Of a stretch of 64,000 nt of DNA, positions 21,635 to 43,945 are shown piece by piece; the first letter of the stretch is position 1; each line of letters starts with the position of its first letter. The notes under the pieces were generated by a model. It was given only the letters and a program-made list of their open reading frames with translations. It ran no database searches and was not told the origin of the DNA. A program made the translations under genes and the position numbers. Source of the DNA: Phycisphaerae bacterium (GTDB lineage: Bacteria; Planctomycetota; Phycisphaerae; UBA1845; UTPLA1); contig DATEMU010000014.1 of assembly GCA_035275405.1 (NCBI GenBank), forward strand, positions 62,001 to 126,000, in the 5' to 3' direction.

Positions 21635-21718
21635 CCCATCTGTGCGCATCTGCGCCATCTGCGGATTTCTGTTCTTCTTTCGCTATTCGCTATTCGCCAT
21701 TCGCCATTCGCAATTCTC
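21635..21718. repeat. Adjacent copies of two repeat families between convergent genes
   Basis: 21635-21667 is a copy, in reverse orientation, of the GCAGATGGCGCAGATG family; 21676-21718 is TTCGCTATTCGCTATTCGCC and further ATTCGCCATTCG units. The second reaches into the 3' end of the PLP-enzyme gene and supplies its last codons and stop (RMANGE, TAG). Confidence 0.85.
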
Positions 21719-25642: not shown

Positions 25643-26287
25643 ATGGACACGATCGACAGAAAATCGGCTCGAAATGTCCCTTCTGCGCCCACCGTCTTCC
25701 TCGTCGACGATGATCGCGGTATCCGCGATTCCCTGCGCTGGCTCGCCGAATCCGTCGGCCTCCACCTCGTCTCCTATGCTTCCGCCCAGGAATTTCTCGA
25801 CGCCTTTCAACCGGATACCCCCGGTTGCCTCCTGCTTGACGTCCGCATGCCCGGCATGAGCGGTCTCGATCTGCAGGAACGCCTCAACGCGCAGTGCATC
25901 GATATTCCCGTCATCATCCTCACCGCCCACGGCGATGTTCCCATGGCCGTCCGCGCCCTCAAGGCCGGCGCGTTCGACTTTCTGGAAAAGCCCTTCAGCG
26001 ACCAGGTGCTCCTGGACCAGATCAACCTGGCCCTGGATCACGACAGGAACAACCGCGCGAAGAAGGCGGAGAACGCCGACTTGCTCCAGCGCCTCCAGGC
26101 GCTTTCGCCCCGCGAGCGCACCGTCATGATCAAGGTCGCCGGAGGAATGTCCAACAAGTCCATCGCCGAGGAACTCGGCCTCAGCCAGAAGACCATCGAG
26201 GTCCACCGCGCCCACGTCATGGCCAAGGTCCGCGCCAATTCCGTCGCCGAACTCGTCCAGATCGCCTACCGCGCCGGCCTCACCTAG
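25643..26287 (+). CDS. FixJ/TodR-type response regulator (receiver + LuxR HTH)
   Basis: 214 residues. Receiver domain: acidic pocket VDDDRG, phospho-acceptor Asp66 in CLLLDVRMPGMSGLDL, Thr in ILTAHGDVPMAV, and Lys in FLEKPF. The LuxR-type HTH follows a short linker: LSPRERTVMIKVAGGMSNKSIAEEL, then SQKTIEVHRAHVMAKV. The HGDVPMAVRALKAGAFDFLEKPF stretch is the FixJ/NtrC style. No kinase is adjacent, so it is an orphan here; a second FixJ-like protein with its kinase sits at 56.4-59.7 kb and the two might share signals. The start codon is preceded by a weak binding site. Confidence 0.92.
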   Translation: MDTIDRKSARNVPSAPTVFLVDDDRGIRDSLRWLAESVGLHLVSYASAQEFLDAFQPDTPGCLLLDVRMPGMSGLDLQERLNAQCIDIPVIILTAHGDVPMAVRALKAGAFDFLEKPFSDQVLLDQINLALDHDRNNRAKKAENADLLQRLQALSPRERTVMIKVAGGMSNKSIAEELGLSQKTIEVHRAHVMAKVRANSVAELVQIAYRAGLT

Positions 26288-26449
26288 GGAGGGCGAGGCT
26301 CCCGCCGAGCCCTGATCGCGATCGCCCCGCCTTCCTAACGCAAGTGGCCGGTCCCACGTGCCGAAAACACACCCGGACGTGGCGAAATAACAACATCAAG
26401 GCAGGGGCCGAACCTGCGCCTGGATCGGGCCTCCATTGCAGATAAGAAT

Positions 26450-26938
26450 ATGACGACGACGAAGTTAGAATTACCCACGCCGCCTGTGATGTCGAGACGT
26501 GGCACTGTCGTTGCAGGGCAGGGACGTCGGCCCATGGACGCCCGCGATAATAGGAATGGACACCTGGTGAATCCCGCGACGAAATCCATCACCGATCCCG
26601 CTGCCGAGCGCCGCCGCGACCAGCGCCTCGAGATCGGTCTGCCGGTCGAATTCCGCCACGCTCGCGAAGACGGCGACGTGATCGTCCGAACCCTCACCCG
26701 CAACATCAGCTCCGGTGGTCTCTATCTCGAATTGGATCGTTCCGACTTCCAGCCCGGCGACCGCGTGGAGGCCGAACTCTCCATCCCCGCCGCCGAAGGT
26801 GTCTCGCCATACCCCGGTCGCGCCACCGTGCAGCTCGAAATCCTTCGCGTCACTCCCCTCGACGACCGCCGCGGCGCCGCCCACTCCCACTACGGCCTCG
26901 CCGCCCGCTTCCTCGAACCCCTCCGCTTCTCCTACTGA
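26450..26938 (+). CDS. PilZ-domain protein
   Basis: 162 residues. The PilZ signature is RRDQRLEIGLPVEF (the RxxxR c-di-GMP arginine motif) followed by NISSGGLYLEL (the DxSxxG-type motif, here Asn in place of Asp), then a beta-barrel ending LAARFLEP. The N-terminal 50 residues appear disordered, so translation may start at one of the internal methionines (26489 or 26534). It likely binds cyclic di-GMP and controls a cellular machine; partner unknown. Monocistronic as far as visible. Confidence 0.88.
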   Translation: MTTTKLELPTPPVMSRRGTVVAGQGRRPMDARDNRNGHLVNPATKSITDPAAERRRDQRLEIGLPVEFRHAREDGDVIVRTLTRNISSGGLYLELDRSDFQPGDRVEAELSIPAAEGVSPYPGRATVQLEILRVTPLDDRRGAAHSHYGLAARFLEPLRFSY

Positions 26939-26953
26939 AGCCGAAGAAATATC

Positions 26954-26988
26954 ATCCGCAGATGACGCAGATGAACACAGATAAGGAT
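26954..26988 (+). repeat. GCAGATGACGCAGATG repeat, left copy bordering the GxxExxY gene
   Basis: ATCCGCAGATGACGCAGATG followed by AACACAGATAAGGAT. The first ATG of the GxxExxY gene lies inside it, so the repeat encodes its first residues (MTQMNTDKD). Confidence 0.9.
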
Positions 26989-27399
26989 CCTCGTACACAC
27001 GCGGTTATCGGCGCCGCGATCGAGGTGCATAACCACCTCGGTTCAGGCTTCTTGGAAGCTGCATACCAAGAGGCGTTGGCGATTGAACTATCATTGCGAG
27101 GCGTGCCTTACTTGCGCGAAGTCGAATTGAATGTAAGATATAAGGACCGGGTTCTTGCGCGCAGATACAAGGCCGATTTCGTTTGTTACGATGAGATCAT
27201 TGTGGAAGTCAAGGCGTTAAAGGAGATCCGCGGCCCGGAACAGGCTCAACTTCTGAACTACCTTAAGGCCACAGGGTATCCCCTCGGACTGCTCGTAAAC
27301 TTTGGAGGTCCGCGCCTCGAATACAAACGCATGATCCACTCTTCCCATCTGTGTCCATCTGCGTCATCTGCGGATAAGTCTTCTTCCTTTACGGAGTAG
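26962..27399 (+). CDS. GxxExxY protein (PD-(D/E)XK nuclease-like fold)
   Basis: 145 residues. The family name motif is present as GSGFLEAAYQEAL (Gly, Glu, Tyr at the expected spacing, residues 28-40). Further on, ADFVCYDEIIVEVKA gives the Asp and ExK of a PD-(D/E)XK active site; Pfam places this family in that nuclease superfamily (PDDEXK_3). AQLLNYLKATGYPLGLLVNFG is the conserved C-terminal helix/strand. DNA cleavage has not been shown for the family to my knowledge. The gene begins and ends inside inverted copies of the same dispersed repeat: the first nine residues and roughly residues 125-141 (SSHLCPSASSADKSSS) are repeat-encoded. That context suggests a mobile gene/repeat unit. Confidence 0.88.
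   Translation: MTQMNTDKDPRTHAVIGAAIEVHNHLGSGFLEAAYQEALAIELSLRGVPYLREVELNVRYKDRVLARRYKADFVCYDEIIVEVKALKEIRGPEQAQLLNYLKATGYPLGLLVNFGGPRLEYKRMIHSSHLCPSASSADKSSSFTE
27345..27376 (-). repeat. GCAGATGACGCAGATG repeat, right inverted copy
   Basis: CCCATCTGTGTCCATCTGCG then TCATCTGCGGATAAG, the reverse complement of the left copy at 26954-26988, with about 85-90% identity by eye. It encodes the C-terminal SASSADKSSS of the GxxExxY protein. Confidence 0.9.
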
Positions 27400-27403
27400 A
27401 CGA

Positions 27404-28816
27404 CTACCGGCACCCTTCCCCCGTGCACTTCCCGCACATTGAGAAAGGTATATCCGGTATCCCCTGCGCGTCGCGCATCGGGCCCAGGTTGCTCGCCGGG
27501 ATCAGGTCGTCCAGCATCCATCGGCCATTGTTGGCCGCGCTCCGCCCGAGGTTGAGCAGCAGCAATGCCCCGCTGCTCTGCCAGCCGACCGGGAAGATCG
27601 TCGGCTCCAGCCGCGCCCGCCGATACTCCGCGTCGACTTCCAGCACCTGCCGCGCCGACGACGCCGTCGCCATCAGGTCGCCCGATTCCGAGGTATGTTC
27701 CAGGCCCAGCAAATGCCCCAGCTCGTGCGCCGCAATGTTCGCCAGCGCCTGCGCCGCCTCGTCCACCGTCGGCTCGAGGCTCTCGAACATCGCCAGGTCT
27801 TCCGAGTAAATGATCGCCTCCTGCGTCAGCATGTTGTTGCCGGTGTCTACACTGTCCGCCAGACCCAGATAGCTGGCGTTGTAATTCCCGAAGAACAGCC
27901 GCGAGTGCGCCTCGGTCGGCCGCGTGTGGTGCTTGCTGTCCAGCAGCGTCACGTTGTACGGCGCGAGGTCCTGCCGCATCTGCGCGATCAGCCGATCGAT
28001 GATGTAGTCCGTCTGCCCCGCGTAGCGGCTCGACATCGCCTCCGCGCTGAAGGTGTTCATCACCACCACCGGCTCCCACGCGATCTGCACGCTCTCCCCG
28101 CCCTCGAAGTCCAGCCACACCAACTGCGGCCGCGGCGGATTGACCGTCCCGGCCGGTCGCCGGCTGAGTCGGATGCTGTACGAACCCGTGGGTGCGCCAG
28201 AGGACGCGAAGTGGGTCGCCGTGGATGCGGCAACGCCGAGGTAGAGATTCGGCGAATCCTGGCGAATCGTCTGACTGATAAACGGGTTGAGGTTTCCCGC
28301 GTAGTACGACCGATCGTTGTTCGCGTCAATCAACTCCGACTCGCCGTTGAACAGCGCCGCGACGGCGTTCAGGCCGCCGTTGCCGGTGACGTCCGCGACG
28401 ACGACATCGCCCGCCGACGCCGGCCCCAGCGTGTAGACATCGATATCGCCGTCCACCTCGATCGCGCCTTCGATCACGATCTCACCGTCGGCCGGCAGCG
28501 TCGCCGGTTGCGCCGACGTGAACTCGCTGTTGTCGTTGCCATCCTCATAGACCGGGCTCTGCACCGGCGCGACCTCGCCGTTCGTCAGCGGCGCCCGCTT
28601 GGCGCTCTCGTCGGTCGGCAGCAGCGTCGTCCCGCAGCCGGTCACGAACCCCAGAAGCAGGGCGATCGCGCCGACGACGAGTACCGCATCGAGATACTCC
28701 CGATGAACTCGGCGTCCGCGCCGGGTGCCGGTCGGGGTCGTGAAAAGAGTACGGAAAACAAAGGGTAAAAGAGGTCGGCGGGCGCTTTCCTCTCCGGAGA
28801 TCCGGCGGGCGTGCAT
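27404..28816 (-). CDS. Metzincin (matrixin-like) zinc metalloprotease lipoprotein
   Basis: 470 residues. A long basic N-terminus precedes a membrane segment and lipobox VTGC (Cys61), so the mature protein is probably lipid-anchored outside the cytoplasm. Residues 100-220 form a pre-peptidase C-terminal type beta domain (GEIVIEGAIEVDGDIDVYTL). The catalytic domain holds HELGHLLGLEH: His364, Glu365, His368 and His374 are the zinc ligands and base of the metzincin clan, followed by Met382 in GDLMATA as the Met-turn. The C-terminus ends with a cysteine-rich CGKCTGEGC. The gene ends 4 bp from the GxxExxY stop in convergent orientation, so that mobile-looking gene sits hard against it. Confidence 0.88.
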   Translation of the reverse strand: MHARRISGEESARRPLLPFVFRTLFTTPTGTRRGRRVHREYLDAVLVVGAIALLLGFVTGCGTTLLPTDESAKRAPLTNGEVAPVQSPVYEDGNDNSEFTSAQPATLPADGEIVIEGAIEVDGDIDVYTLGPASAGDVVVADVTGNGGLNAVAALFNGESELIDANNDRSYYAGNLNPFISQTIRQDSPNLYLGVAASTATHFASSGAPTGSYSIRLSRRPAGTVNPPRPQLVWLDFEGGESVQIAWEPVVVMNTFSAEAMSSRYAGQTDYIIDRLIAQMRQDLAPYNVTLLDSKHHTRPTEAHSRLFFGNYNASYLGLADSVDTGNNMLTQEAIIYSEDLAMFESLEPTVDEAAQALANIAAHELGHLLGLEHTSESGDLMATASSARQVLEVDAEYRRARLEPTIFPVGWQSSGALLLLNLGRSAANNGRWMLDDLIPASNLGPMRDAQGIPDIPFSMCGKCTGEGCR

Positions 28817-35029: not shown

Positions 35030-36817
35030 GTGGTGTGGGTAGGATCAGTTCAAATGCGGAATTCGGAATTCGGAATGCGGAATGCGGAACCGGATCGCGT
35101 GGAGACGGGCGCGGGGTGGCGGCGCGGGATGCTTGCGCTATGCATGATCGTCGGGGCGGCGGTGATGGTGCAGGGGGCTGCGCGGCTGCCGTGCATCAGC
35201 CGGGATGGCGTGTTTTTCGTTGAGTATGCGGAGAAGCTGGCGGTTGAGCCGCTGGTGCAGTTGCGGGGGCAGACGAAGCAGCCGGGGTATTCGATTTTGC
35301 TGTTGGGGTTGCATTCGTTGATTGGTCGGTCGATTTCCGAGAACGCGGCAGTTTCGTGGGAGGTTTGCGGGCAGATTATTGCGGTGCTGGGGGGCGTTGC
35401 GGTCGTTGGACTGATTTATTTGCTGACGCGGCGGTTGTTTGATGCGCGGACCGCATTGGTGGCGGCGCTGTTGGCGGCGTTCTGGCCGCAGCTCGTTTCG
35501 GTGTCGAGTGATGTGTTGTCGGATGCGCCGCATTTGGCGTTGTATTTGGGCGGGTTGCTGCTGGGGGTTCGGGCGATGGGCCAAACGAACCGGCGAATCG
35601 AAGAAAATCTGAACCACAGAGGCACAGAGGCACAGAGGACGAGATGGAGGTCGCTGGTTGCTTGCGGGGCGGTTTGTGGCCTGGCGTATTGGATGCGGCA
35701 GGAGGCGCTGGGGGCGGTGGCGGCCGTCGTGGTTTGTTTGCTGTGGCCGGCGGCGCGGGTGGTGCTTTCGCGGCGAGTGGCGCGGGTGGGGGTGGTCGTG
35801 GCGGCGTTTGTGATTGTGGTGGCGCCGTATTCGATTGCCGTGGGGAAGGTGATGCCGAACAAGTCGATCAAGGATTTGTTTTGGGGGACGGAAGAGACGG
35901 AATCCGCAGATGGCGCAGATGGACGCAGATGGTGGGAAAATGCGGAATGCGGAATGCAGAATGCGGAATGGAAGAACCGAGAGGTGCATCAACGAACTCA
36001 GGTTGCAGGGCCGGTGACGTGGTGGGATGCACCGATCAAGATGCTGGGGGGGTGGAGCCGGTCGGGGCGGTATGTGCTGTCGACGCTGGCGCTGGTGGGG
36101 TTTTTCTGGCCGGGGTCGGCGCGGAGCGACCGGGCGGTGCGGCGGTTGGTGGTGATCGCGGCGCTGCTACAAGTCATCGCGGCGCAGGCGCGGGGGATGC
36201 AGTATGGGGTGGTGAGCGAGCGGTATTTGATGATCCCGGCTGCGCTCGCCATTCCGTGGGCGGCGGCGGGGTTGGTGGCGGTGGCGCTATGGATGGCGGA
36301 AAGGATGGCGAATAGCGAAGGGCGAATAGCGAAAGGTGAGGCGCGAGCCATGCGCGAGGCTGAGGCACTGGGTAGACTACGGTCGGCAGGGGCACCGGCC
36401 ACTACGGGGCGCCGGCCGCTACTGGTCGCGGCTCTGATTGCGATTGGGCCGATGGCGTATTATGACTTACGACCGGCGAAGGAAGGTGCGGATTGGCAGC
36501 GGGAGGCAGGGGCGTGGATTGCGGGGCAGGCGGCGAAGGGCGATGTCGTGTTGGCGGCACCGCAGCGGTCGCCAGTGGCGTTTTACGCAGGGTTGGAACG
36601 GCGTTGGCCGGTCAGTGAGGGGATTGCGGTGGCGATGCGACCTGTGAACAGGGCACAGGTATGGGTCGTGGATGATCCAGAAATGAGCCGGGCGACAGAA
36701 ATAGAGAAATCATTGTTGGCGGACTTTCGCAGGCATAAGAGTGCCGACGCGCCGTTGCGGACATGGAGGAAGGAAGAGGAAGGCGAAGTACTGGTGTACA
36801 AGCTGCGGAAGAGTTAG
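35030..36817 (+). CDS. GT-C (PMT/ArnT-like) membrane glycosyltransferase with repeat insertions
   Basis: 595 residues in the open frame, with many transmembrane helices. Near the first helix the loop ISRDGVFFVEYAEKLA has the Arg-Asp-Gly pattern of GT-C enzymes that use polyprenyl-phosphate sugars (family 39/ArnT group), followed by SIL...GL helices and a polar C-terminal part. The frame has at least five repeat-derived stretches: MRNSEFGMRNAE at the start, NHRGTEAQR near residue 195, ESADGADGRRWWENAECGMQNAEW near 292-316, MANSEGRIAKGE near 426, and RSAGAPATTGRRPL near 449. Because the first lies at the N-terminus, the start codon is uncertain; MLALCMIVG at 35129 is the first native-looking methionine. 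It could still be functional since all lie in loops. Confidence 0.75.
   Translation: MVWVGSVQMRNSEFGMRNAEPDRVETGAGWRRGMLALCMIVGAAVMVQGAARLPCISRDGVFFVEYAEKLAVEPLVQLRGQTKQPGYSILLLGLHSLIGRSISENAAVSWEVCGQIIAVLGGVAVVGLIYLLTRRLFDARTALVAALLAAFWPQLVSVSSDVLSDAPHLALYLGGLLLGVRAMGQTNRRIEENLNHRGTEAQRTRWRSLVACGAVCGLAYWMRQEALGAVAAVVVCLLWPAARVVLSRRVARVGVVVAAFVIVVAPYSIAVGKVMPNKSIKDLFWGTEETESADGADGRRWWENAECGMQNAEWKNREVHQRTQVAGPVTWWDAPIKMLGGWSRSGRYVLSTLALVGFFWPGSARSDRAVRRLVVIAALLQVIAAQARGMQYGVVSERYLMIPAALAIPWAAAGLVAVALWMAERMANSEGRIAKGEARAMREAEALGRLRSAGAPATTGRRPLLVAALIAIGPMAYYDLRPAKEGADWQREAGAWIAGQAAKGDVVLAAPQRSPVAFYAGLERRWPVSEGIAVAMRPVNRAQVWVVDDPEMSRATEIEKSLLADFRRHKSADAPLRTWRKEEEGEVLVYKLRKS
35054..35092. repeat. 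GCGGAATTCGGAATGCGGAA repeat at the GT-C gene start
   Basis: ATGCGGAATTCGGAATTCGG followed by AATGCGGAATGCGGAA, providing possible ATG starts (MRNSEFGMRNAE). Confidence 0.85.
35612..35641. repeat. CACAGAGGCACAGAGG repeat inside the GT-C gene
   Basis: AACCACAGAGGCACAGAGGC then ACAGAGG, in frame as NHRGTEAQR. Confidence 0.85.
35902..35976. repeat. Two adjacent repeats inside the GT-C gene
   Basis: ATCCGCAGATGGCGCAGATG GACGCAGATGG (35902-35931) followed by AATGCGGAATGCGGAATGCA and more (35939-35974). Both are read in frame as SADGADGRRW and NAECGMQNAE. Confidence 0.88.
36304..36425. repeat. Two further repeats inside the GT-C gene
   Basis: 36304-36336 has ATGGCGAATAGCGAAGGGCG AATAGCGAAA; 36380-36425 has the palindromic GGCAGGGGCACCGGCC...GGGGCGCCGGCCGCTAC type, also found between genes at 45973-46001. 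Confidence 0.8.
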
Positions 36818-42300: not shown

Positions 42301-43945
42301 AGGCCACGCGACCGGTGGAAGTGGAGACGGCGGCGACTCCACCGAGGTTGGTGGGGACAAAGACAAGATCACCCTGCGCGGCGGGGAAGGTGAGGGTGGC
42401 GCGGGAGTAGCCGTAGCTGCCGGTCGCGGCTTCGCCGAGATGGACGGACCAGACGAGTCGGCCATCGGCGGGGTCGAGGCGGATCAGGTAGCAGGCTTCG
42501 AAGCCGAAGGGTTTTCGGCGGCGGGCGACAGCGTATAGCGCGGCACGGTGAAGGATGGGCGCGCCGTCGAGGCGGGCCTCCTCAAAGGGAGAGACGAAAC
42601 CGTCGAGGTCGTTTCGCCAGATCAGTGAGCCATTGGCGGCGTCGAGGCAGACGAGCGTGGAGGCGGCGGTGATGTGGTCGCTGCCGGTGTCGGTGATTTC
42701 GCGCTCAAAATGGACATAGAGACGGCCGTTGGCATAGAGGCTGGTGTAGAGCGGGGGAGCGGATTCCTCGGCATTCCACGGCGCGGGGGCGGGGAGGACC
42801 TGGGAAAGATCGAATTGCCAGACGGGCCGGTCGGGGTTTTGCGGGTCGATGGCCCAGGCGCTGCGTGCGTCGTGCAGGAAAATAAGAGGGATTGAGGGAT
42901 TAAGGGATTGAGGGATTAAGGGTTCGGTGGCCGCGACGGGTTGGGAGGCGAGGAGGCGGCCGCTGGTGAGGGCGCGGTGGTAGGCTTCGAGTCGGGCGAT
43001 TCGCGATTCGTAGCCTTCGGCGATTTCGCCGGTGAGAAGGCGGCCAAAGGCGTTGAAGCGCCACCAGCGGGCTTCGGCGGAGGCGGTGGTGGGGAATTGG
43101 CCGCGTCGATGGGGTGCGCCGCCGAGGAGTTCGGGGCGAGCGGAGACCGGGTCGGGAGTGCCGTCGCGGCGGCACTGGTCGAGTGTTAAACGGAGGAAGT
43201 CGCTGAGTGGTTGGGACTTGCCGGCCCAGTCGACGGATTTATCCACAGATGGCGCCGATGCACGCAGATTGTCGGAAGGCGGCAAGGACGCGATCAGTTT
43301 TTCGAGTGGGGCGAGGTCGCCCTGATGCGCGAGGCAAAGGGCGAGCTTGGCTTTCCAGTGCGATTCAAATTGTTCGCGGTCAGGATGGTCGGCGAGGAGA
43401 CGCTCGTACCAGCGGCGAGCGGCTTCGAAGTCGGCGTTTTCCATGGCCAGTTCGGCGGCCTGGTCGAGCGACTGCGCGCCGGCGTTCGTCGCGTAGAAGC
43501 GTTCGGCGAGTCGGACGCGGGCGTCGATGTCCGCGGGGTTCTGCAGTTCGGCGAGCGCGGCCGCGGCGGAGGATTCGAATGCGGCGCGGTAGGCGGCGAG
43601 GCCCTCCGCCGGCCAGTCGGCGATCTTGCGGTTGACGAACTCGCGGACACTGATGTAGAGGCGCGACGGCGCGCCCGGCTCGGCGATCAGGCTGGCGCCG
43701 AATTTCTCACCGATTTCGTGGAAGGCGCGGGCGGCGTCGGCCCAGTCGGCATCGGGGGCGCCCGCCACGGCGGGCAGGTTCTGCTCGGCGCGGTCGAGGG
43801 CCTCCTGGGCCTGGAAGCTGATGTTGAAATAGGTGGCATCCGCCGCGTCGGGTTTTCGATCGGCAGGGCGTTCAGGGGGAGGATCGGCAAATACCGGTAG
43901 CAGTCCGAACAGGATTGGGAGGATACCAGCCATTGCGAATGCCAT
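39353..43945 (-). CDS. Giant exported PQQ-propeller/TPR protein with repeat-encoded inserts
   Basis: 1530 residues with an N-terminal signal peptide (MAFAMAGILPILFGLLPVFA). A first quinoprotein-like beta-propeller lies at about residues 365-720 (WAIDPQNPDRPVWQFDL; VCLDAANGSLIWRND; LDPADGRLVWSVHLGE), then TPR-like helices (about 720-1090: DDPLIAFSLAELAFNTGEYQ), then a second propeller to the end (ATGRSLWSKPFP; TGNLVWENKSAG; LALDADDGHTLWTAPCP). Such PQQ/TPR proteins are common exported planctomycete proteins of unknown role. Three linkers are PQSLNPSIPQSL-type inserts encoded by an 8-bp tandem array (40716, 41482, 42886), and a fourth near residue 230 (SAPSVDKSVD) comes from the GCAGATG family. 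It is followed by the MBL hydrolase. Confidence 0.88.
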   Translation of the reverse strand: MAFAMAGILPILFGLLPVFADPPPERPADRKPDAADATYFNISFQAQEALDRAEQNLPAVAGAPDADWADAARAFHEIGEKFGASLIAEPGAPSRLYISVREFVNRKIADWPAEGLAAYRAAFESSAAAALAELQNPADIDARVRLAERFYATNAGAQSLDQAAELAMENADFEAARRWYERLLADHPDREQFESHWKAKLALCLAHQGDLAPLEKLIASLPPSDNLRASAPSVDKSVDWAGKSQPLSDFLRLTLDQCRRDGTPDPVSARPELLGGAPHRRGQFPTTASAEARWWRFNAFGRLLTGEIAEGYESRIARLEAYHRALTSGRLLASQPVAATEPLIPQSLNPSIPLIFLHDARSAWAIDPQNPDRPVWQFDLSQVLPAPAPWNAEESAPPLYTSLYANGRLYVHFEREITDTGSDHITAASTLVCLDAANGSLIWRNDLDGFVSPFEEARLDGAPILHRAALYAVARRRKPFGFEACYLIRLDPADGRLVWSVHLGEAATGSYGYSRATLTFPAAQGDLVFVPTNLGGVAAVSTSTGRVAWAHQYDSRFGANEGAVWPDTTTRPLRAWHYNSAMLWKDAVVCMPLDNDAILVLAQDDGRELFKIPADSIHRPQTLVGLAGNWLYTAGTQVVCYDLAARKIAWQRPLELGQLFGRGALTTTGLFLPTDRSLLHYPLDGGPARHYRWSIEDAGNLLVLPDQIVVAAPNSVFGLVARQDAFARLDRRMQERPDDPLIAFSLAELAFNTGEYQRGLDAVHSAVDRVGGFARLTDEPLRRRFFKTLTQFATALLEDAPDERDSDAAPSIPQSLNPSIPRLQTAVTLLKLAGQCPPGPADRATQCLLLARALLESNDQPGAVQAYQRILADRGLRRLKLELRPVLRPPWRARDDDAERQSDDADGPTVDLAPAVTSWIARIIKLHGPEAYAAVARQAADRLEIAQSQIQRGGAKTDASNLLEVADAFPNSPAALEALVTHADYMTKRLDWPAAARSYRRALTSAESKRVSEDDDPSAHSEMTYPDLIRRYADVLIAADRPADAAAWLHRGARDYPNHRFASSSPQSLNPSIPQSLVSFSVYGRLRLGDRDFTDPANNIELPPITDTYHRLFPDRVSVLEPLFPDLPDTRWDALLTYAGRQVEARHPATGRSLWSKPFPSSAQPVLVGMDADRYVFATPYRLFALTRTSGQLAWQVGEEPPDDVHADPESLPAYAQYFLTPRRLFAATDRGALNCTDVKTGNLVWENKSAGSPSGQLLADDDSCCYGVWQGGNHSINVLDAATGRLIRQLTSDEKGPAQSLHWTTDLGPRGLLVVRSSTIERYDLASAKPVWRIAVPEHFVAATLQLNADSLIVSADGRRLTCFDLADAAVRWRSSPFAGEAGSLWCRQAAGVLYVASDVALLALDADDGHTLWTAPCPAARAVQPPRLLKDRIIVITPEAPPKSKNRRRDKAPELDDGEAAQYHLQAFHLDNGKPAPLEGKHPIESPNAVGPIVTEPIASFGGLFLRDNALLLLDANRLIGYVAKNDE
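40716..40751. repeat. 8-bp tandem array in the PQQ gene, copy 1
   Basis: GAGGGATTGAGGGATTGAGG GATTAAGGGATTGAGG, encoding SPQSLNPSIPQSL on the minus strand. Confidence 0.92.
41482..41518. repeat. 8-bp tandem array in the PQQ gene, copy 2
   Basis: GAGGGATTGAGGGATTAAGA GATTGAGGGATTGAGGG, encoding PSIPQSLNPSIP. Confidence 0.92.
42886..42922. repeat. 8-bp tandem array in the PQQ gene, copy 3
   Basis: GAGGGATTGAGGGATTAAGG GATTGAGGGATTAAGGG, encoding PLIPQSLNPSIPLI. Confidence 0.92.
43240..43270. repeat. GCAGATGGCGC-family repeat in the PQQ gene
   Basis: TTATCCACAGATGGCGCCGA TGCACGCAGATT, a diverged copy of the family flanking the GxxExxY gene. Confidence 0.65.

Follow-up and report, generated by a model that had tools for sequence, protein, structure and literature searches.

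The window analysed here is a 64,000-nt stretch of a Phycisphaerae bacterium contig, and all coordinates are counted from its first letter. It holds a 444-nt element in which a gene of the GxxExxY family lies between two inverted arms. The features of the locus, with the basis of each assignment, are as follows.

26450..26938, + strand: PilZ-domain gene, left neighbour, outside the element (context)
26943..27386, + strand: whole element, 444 nt, made up of arm, GxxExxY gene and inverted arm (arm alignment, RNA folding)
26943..26982, + strand: left arm, about three 9-nt units CGCAGATGA CGCAGATGA ACACAGAT, outer GAAGAAATATCATC
26962..27399, + strand: GxxExxY gene, 145 aa (profile matches, conserved residues, predicted fold)
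27347..27386, − strand: right arm, an inverted copy of the left arm (arm alignment)
27404..28816, − strand: matrixin-like metalloprotease gene, right neighbour, outside the element (context)

The two 40-nt arms are 88% complementary, with 364 nt between them, and consist of ATC followed by the approximately three 9-nt units; a 29-nt unit, ATCCGCAGATGACGCAGATGAACACAGAT, is matched in them at 29/29 and 28/29 positions. The start codon and first residues of the protein (MTQMNTD) are supplied by the left arm, and the open reading frame runs through the right arm, from which it takes its C-terminal residues. The preliminary description had the gene both starting and ending within inverted repeats, which holds for the start and for the last residues but not for the stop codon, located 11–13 nt past the arm. 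Annotators should be warned that such proteins take residues at both termini from repeats. In RNA form the arms pair and the 444-nt element folds into one long stem (z −6.7 relative to shuffled sequences). The site is intergenic, between the PilZ and metalloprotease genes, and not inside an rRNA gene. PF13366 is the only Pfam domain in the element, with no PF05635, Y1 HUH tyrosine transposase or known transposase domain, and comparison of the locus with PADLOC gave no defence-system match. A 25-nt word just to the left (window 26287–26311) has exact copies in four genomes of the same order (G004, G021, G029 and G032) and represents a separate dispersed repeat.

Assignment of the protein to the GxxExxY family with a D...ExK pattern, as originally proposed, was borne out by profile matches to TIGR04256 (E 1e-41, 142 bits, cut-off 35) and PF13366 (E 2e-39, 135 bits, cut-off 22). 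Across 49 homologues, G29, E32, D72, K84 and Q96 are invariant, E82 and Y100 are nearly so, and Y35 and E82 are conserved in more than 90%. We take the resulting D..ExK..QxxxY pattern to be the signature of RecB/Cas4 nucleases. The AlphaFold2 model (pLDDT 90) has as its closest solved fold the Cas4 protein SSO0001 (Foldseek E 5.8e-5, Z 9.7, rmsd 6.3 over 109 residues), followed by other PD-(D/E)XK folds including Holliday junction resolvases (Z 6–8). The protein is thus a predicted nuclease of Cas4/RecB-like PD-(D/E)XK fold, the subfamily call being moderate because of these other PD-(D/E)XK folds. It resembles Cas4/RecB-family nucleases in fold and signature but differs from them in showing no Cas1/Cas2 or helicase context and in having only ~20% identity. 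A sequence search of the PDB returned no relative. Since tblastn found no match in phages and 8 distant matches in plasmids, these collections gave no strain-level empty sites. The literature covered, which excluded preprints, does not tie GxxExxY to mobility or name PDDEXK_3, a silence that counts as weak evidence.

Solo arms and tandem arrays in the source genome

Single copies of the arm occur elsewhere in the window. The three solos reported previously at 21635, 35902 and 43240, two of them inside genes, are real, with slightly adjusted ends.

21638..21666, − strand: solo arm, 26/29, intergenic, beside a GCGAATA-type tandem array
35902..35930, + strand: solo arm, 26/29, in frame in a PMT_2-type glycosyltransferase ORF, followed by a GAATGCG-type array
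43241..43269, + strand: degenerate solo arm, 24/29, in frame in a 1530-aa PQQ/BamB-like ORF

Against these values of 26, 26 and 24 of 29, the best match to ATCCGCAGATGACGCAGATGAACACAGAT in 20 shuffles was 17–20. A 16-mer of the repeat allowing up to 3 mismatches has 9 matches in the window against 0.75 expected, a number reached in 0/100 shuffles, and in the whole genome, at up to 2 mismatches, it is matched 52 times and the reversed pattern 3 times. Other short tandem families (GAATGCG, GCGAATA and GTCAAAAA types) cluster next to CGCAGATG solos, at window 21660–21700 and 35935–35960 and in the L003–L019 flanks of G000; they have the appearance of arms belonging to further elements of this type.

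The second and last GxxExxY gene of the source genome (L001) lies between inverted arms built from another tandem repeat, TTCACCACAGAGGCACAGAGACACAGAG, which suggested that the rule is the layout and not one repeat sequence. That the repeat is a short tandem array varying from element to element had been missed in the preliminary description, as had an unrelated protein, PF05635, in the same architecture.

Inverted arms around GxxExxY and PF05635 genes in other genomes

To score the layout, the upstream flank of a gene was aligned with the reverse complement of its downstream flank, a score of 16 counting as a pass. GxxExxY loci were taken from 46 of 101 genomes of the same order, and inverted arms flank 59 of the 70 genes tested. 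The controls were 0/30 for PIN-domain genes of the relatives and 1/250 for window positions, that one being the element itself. Among 80 named loci from ~20 phyla, with Methanothrix among the archaea, 46 of the 75 testable ones have inverted arms, compared with 5 of 549 control places elsewhere on those contigs. The PIN, same-contig and random-position controls together led us to reject chance or repeat density as the source of the arms. The earlier expectation that the repeat flanks GxxExxY genes in relatives is therefore confirmed, with the modification that its sequence differs by locus. The arm lying 5' of the gene is purine-rich in 93/105 loci. A direct-repeat score also passes in 29 of the 70 loci because many ends hold an additional array in the opposite orientation, and orientation alone is consequently no proof for GxxExxY. 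At 12 of the 59 loci (L050, L064, L082, L080, L056, L067, L041, L077, L044, L092, L090 and L079) each end has such an additional opposite array and is thus itself a hairpin.

Arm sequences vary between loci and agree within a locus, the median score being 22.5 within an element and 5.0 against other GxxExxY elements of the same genome. Protein similarity correlates with arm similarity (Mantel r 0.46, reached in 0/2000 permutations, with same-genome pairs excluded and host kinship not in the model), and the within-genome contrast argues that host relatedness is not the cause of the correlation. Comparison of loci thus shows that arms and gene are inherited as one unit; co-variation of arms and protein arises in any inherited unit, even if the protein never touches the arms.

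Solo arrays follow the gene. Counting CRCAGATNNCRCAGAT outside elements, 11/13 genomes with a CGCAGAT-armed gene contain at least 5 copies, versus 8/88 genomes without one (p = 3e-8), so that solo repeats are not equally common in genomes lacking the gene, an outcome that would have spoken against the preliminary reading. The figure is conservative because the rule missed a gene in G052, one of the 8, whose array (CACAGAT) is related. The true exceptions so far, with many arrays and no matching gene found, are G018, G039 and G041.

The layout resembles that of 23S rRNA intervening sequences, and PF05635 was accordingly tested as a prediction. This 23S rRNA intervening-sequence protein is a four-helix bundle unrelated to GxxExxY, with no nuclease domain, and a shared mechanism therefore cannot rest on GxxExxY catalysis. 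Inverted arms were found at 22 of 31 PF05635 loci, and the direct-repeat score passed at only 4. A member in the source genome itself (L033, matching below the family cut-off) lies between inverted arms of 38 nt that are built from GGACAAAAGG-type units. Judged by the self-match peak, units are 7–8 nt long in PF05635 elements and 8–10 nt in GxxExxY elements, and no GxxExxY arm peaks at 7. Protein and arm similarity are again correlated (Mantel r 0.32, 0/2000 permutations, same-genome pairs excluded, host kinship not in the model).

Filled sites, empty sites and derivative copies

One precise filled/empty junction was available. In G059 a GxxExxY element lies between two sugar-ABC permease genes; at the same junction in its congener G041, whose flanks are 90% and 94% identical to those in G059, 580 nt are absent and two bases stand in their place. 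The outermost 14 nt of the G059 inverted repeat overlap sequence present at the empty site, and no direct target-site duplication was seen at this junction. The two permease genes normally abut, with a gap of −4 to 16 nt in about a dozen genomes, and survivor bias may explain the precision of insertion, in that only the tiny gap tolerates insertions. PF05635 elements occupy this insertion site in seven other genomes; six junctions were read in sequence, with different arms in each, and the seventh, G007, was placed by coordinates. At the same junction, G072 (L171) has 169 nt of intergenic sequence that contains inverted GCGAATA arrays and for which no PF05635 match is listed. This comparison shows that PF05635, a protein unrelated to GxxExxY, shares its architecture and even an insertion site with it.

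Six relatives lack the element at the site that it occupies in the window, and their neighbouring PilZ and metalloprotease genes are separated by 50–136 nt, as opposed to 495 nt here. Clean insertions at orthologous loci, as the preliminary description had anticipated, are therefore seen both in the G041/G059 pair and here, and the empty sites (G041 and the window-site relatives) carry no array.

Derivative forms were also found. G064 contains an internally deleted copy that retains both arms and 35 C-terminal GxxExxY residues (74% identity, E 2e-12); it is counted as one site because a second contig has the same right flank. Hairpins without a gene are present in G000, G064 and G084. Comparison thus shows a unit that orthologous sites either contain or lack in its entirety and that exists in gene-less hairpin, single-arm and, in at least one case, internally deleted forms. 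When L082 was compared within its genus, only one flank matched. For a solo at L295 (G059), the G041 counterpart was rejected as a clean empty site because it has an array in the other orientation; the same locus (L295:2516–2717) includes a ~200-nt sequence, possibly a coding repeat, of which G059 and G041 each contain dozens of copies. Two further GxxExxY elements, L041 and L063 (G052:C261), lie 2 kb apart in opposite orientation and are 84% identical over 466 nt including the arms, a pair that is likely to reflect a local copying event.

A candidate mobile element and its alternatives

The arm counts relative to controls, the co-variation of arms and protein, the tracking of the gene by solos, the empty sites, the deleted copy, the conserved catalytic residues and the fold together favour a small mobile element encoding a protein that recognises the inverted tandem arms around its gene, and on which copies without the gene or with a single arm depend. 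We give this reading a probability of about 0.7. The encoded protein would bind the tandem 7–9-nt units in the arms of its own element. Pairing of the inverted arms, in single-stranded DNA or in RNA, would give a stem-loop; the GxxExxY nuclease would cut or trim that stem-loop; and host replication or repair would complete insertion elsewhere. Arm-only copies would have been moved in trans or be remnants, and in PF05635 elements the cutting would fall to the host or to another enzyme. Mobility itself rests on comparison, whereas the enzymatic steps, including the nuclease doing the moving, are what we infer; to that extent the original proposal of a nuclease and its terminal repeats as a mobile unit, with solos as relatives, has gained support.

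Two rivals keep their weight mainly because PF05635 has no nuclease domain. The arrays could be spread by a host process such as replication slippage or template switching, or by the enzyme of another element, with the GxxExxY and PF05635 genes riding in the loop. That one architecture and one insertion site are common to two unrelated proteins would fit, as would the existence of gene-less hairpins, one of them at that very site. However, only GxxExxY and PF05635 were found so placed (PIN 0/30), arms co-vary with the protein, arrays are plentiful mainly where a matching gene exists, and unit length depends on the family, all of which makes passengers an unlikely explanation. We consider it less probable still that the element acts at the RNA level, where RNase III would cut its hairpin out of the transcript, as happens with rRNA intervening sequences, and the hairpin would spread by reverse transcription and integration. 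The long RNA stem, the insertion at a stop/start junction between co-transcribed genes, the purine-rich 5' arm and the Coxiella 23S intervening sequence, which has the same parts and is RNase III-excised (PMC4990558), all point this way, but single-stranded DNA can form the same stem and GxxExxY resembles DNA nucleases of the RecB/Cas4 type.

The remaining alternatives fare far worse. A homing model, in which GxxExxY is an endonuclease directed at solo repeats already in the genome and has itself been copied into one of them, would agree with the PD-(D/E)XK fold and with how common solo repeats are there; insertion into a repeat should however leave direct halves, and the arms are inverted and the empty sites carry no array, so this very improbable reading was rejected. 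Small PD-(D/E)XK proteins are common in defence systems, and the gene might accordingly be an ordinary stable one, for example of a defence or toxin-antitoxin system, in a repeat-rich spot with coincidental arms. The negative PADLOC result, control rates of 0–1% and presence or absence at orthologous sites leave next to no room for it.

Returning to the mobile-element reading, several known systems share parts of the layout. The Coxiella burnetii 23S intervening sequence is 428 nt long, encodes an S23p (PF05635) ORF, has three tandem heptamers (GACAGAT) at its start and is excised by RNase III (PMC4990558). The element in the window is of about that size and likewise has a single small ORF looped out between the strands of a stem formed by inverted repeats, and PF05635, the ORF family of the Coxiella sequence, is the family found here with arms of 7-nt units; the window element differs in being intergenic, in encoding the unrelated nuclease fold of GxxExxY instead of S23p and in having 9-nt units. 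Even after more than 25 years, it is called unclear what rRNA intervening sequences do and how they arose, and a 1993 proposal held that the ORF aids mobility (both PMC4990558). Finding this anatomy outside rRNA, with empty sites, makes that proposal testable.

The best functional analogue is RAYT/REPIN, in which, as here, a protein gene lies beside its own short repeats, inverted doublets form hairpins, singles are dispersed and protein and repeat co-evolve (PMC3116915). Membership failed, as GxxExxY is a PD-(D/E)XK protein and not a Y1 HUH transposase, the repeats are tandem 8–10-mers in place of palindromic REPs, and the gene is itself in the moving unit, with several copies per genome. Since one defining feature of each is lacking, the element was filed under neither intervening sequences nor RAYT/REPIN. 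As in insertion sequences and MITEs with terminal inverted repeats, there are autonomous, internally deleted and end-only forms, but no DDE, HUH, serine or tyrosine transposase is present, the arms are tandem arrays and no target duplication was seen at the one precise junction. With one protein and ~450 nt, such an element would, if autonomous, rank with the smallest mobile DNAs of that sort.

This kind of element is widespread and apparently undescribed, and it would place GxxExxY and PF05635, two large families of no known function, in tiny mobile elements. A broader reading, for which we regard the odds as even, is a phylum-spanning, undescribed class of very small transposable elements with inverted 7–10-nt tandem arrays as protein-specific ends, in which at least two unrelated proteins, a Cas4/RecB-like nuclease and the rRNA intervening-sequence four-helix bundle, each became the driver, and of which rRNA intervening sequences and at least part of the STRR-like arrays would be products. 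A possible source is thereby offered for the short tandem arrays scattered over many genomes. Cyanobacterial STRR heptamers, SDR elements and TAACTGA arrays are dispersed, mostly 7 nt, form hairpins in some cases and are unexplained in origin and function (PMC2670836, PMC4679880). Unlike the GxxExxY and PF05635 arrays, they are not tied to a protein in these two papers; in appearance, PF05635 arms such as TTGTCAG resemble STRR.
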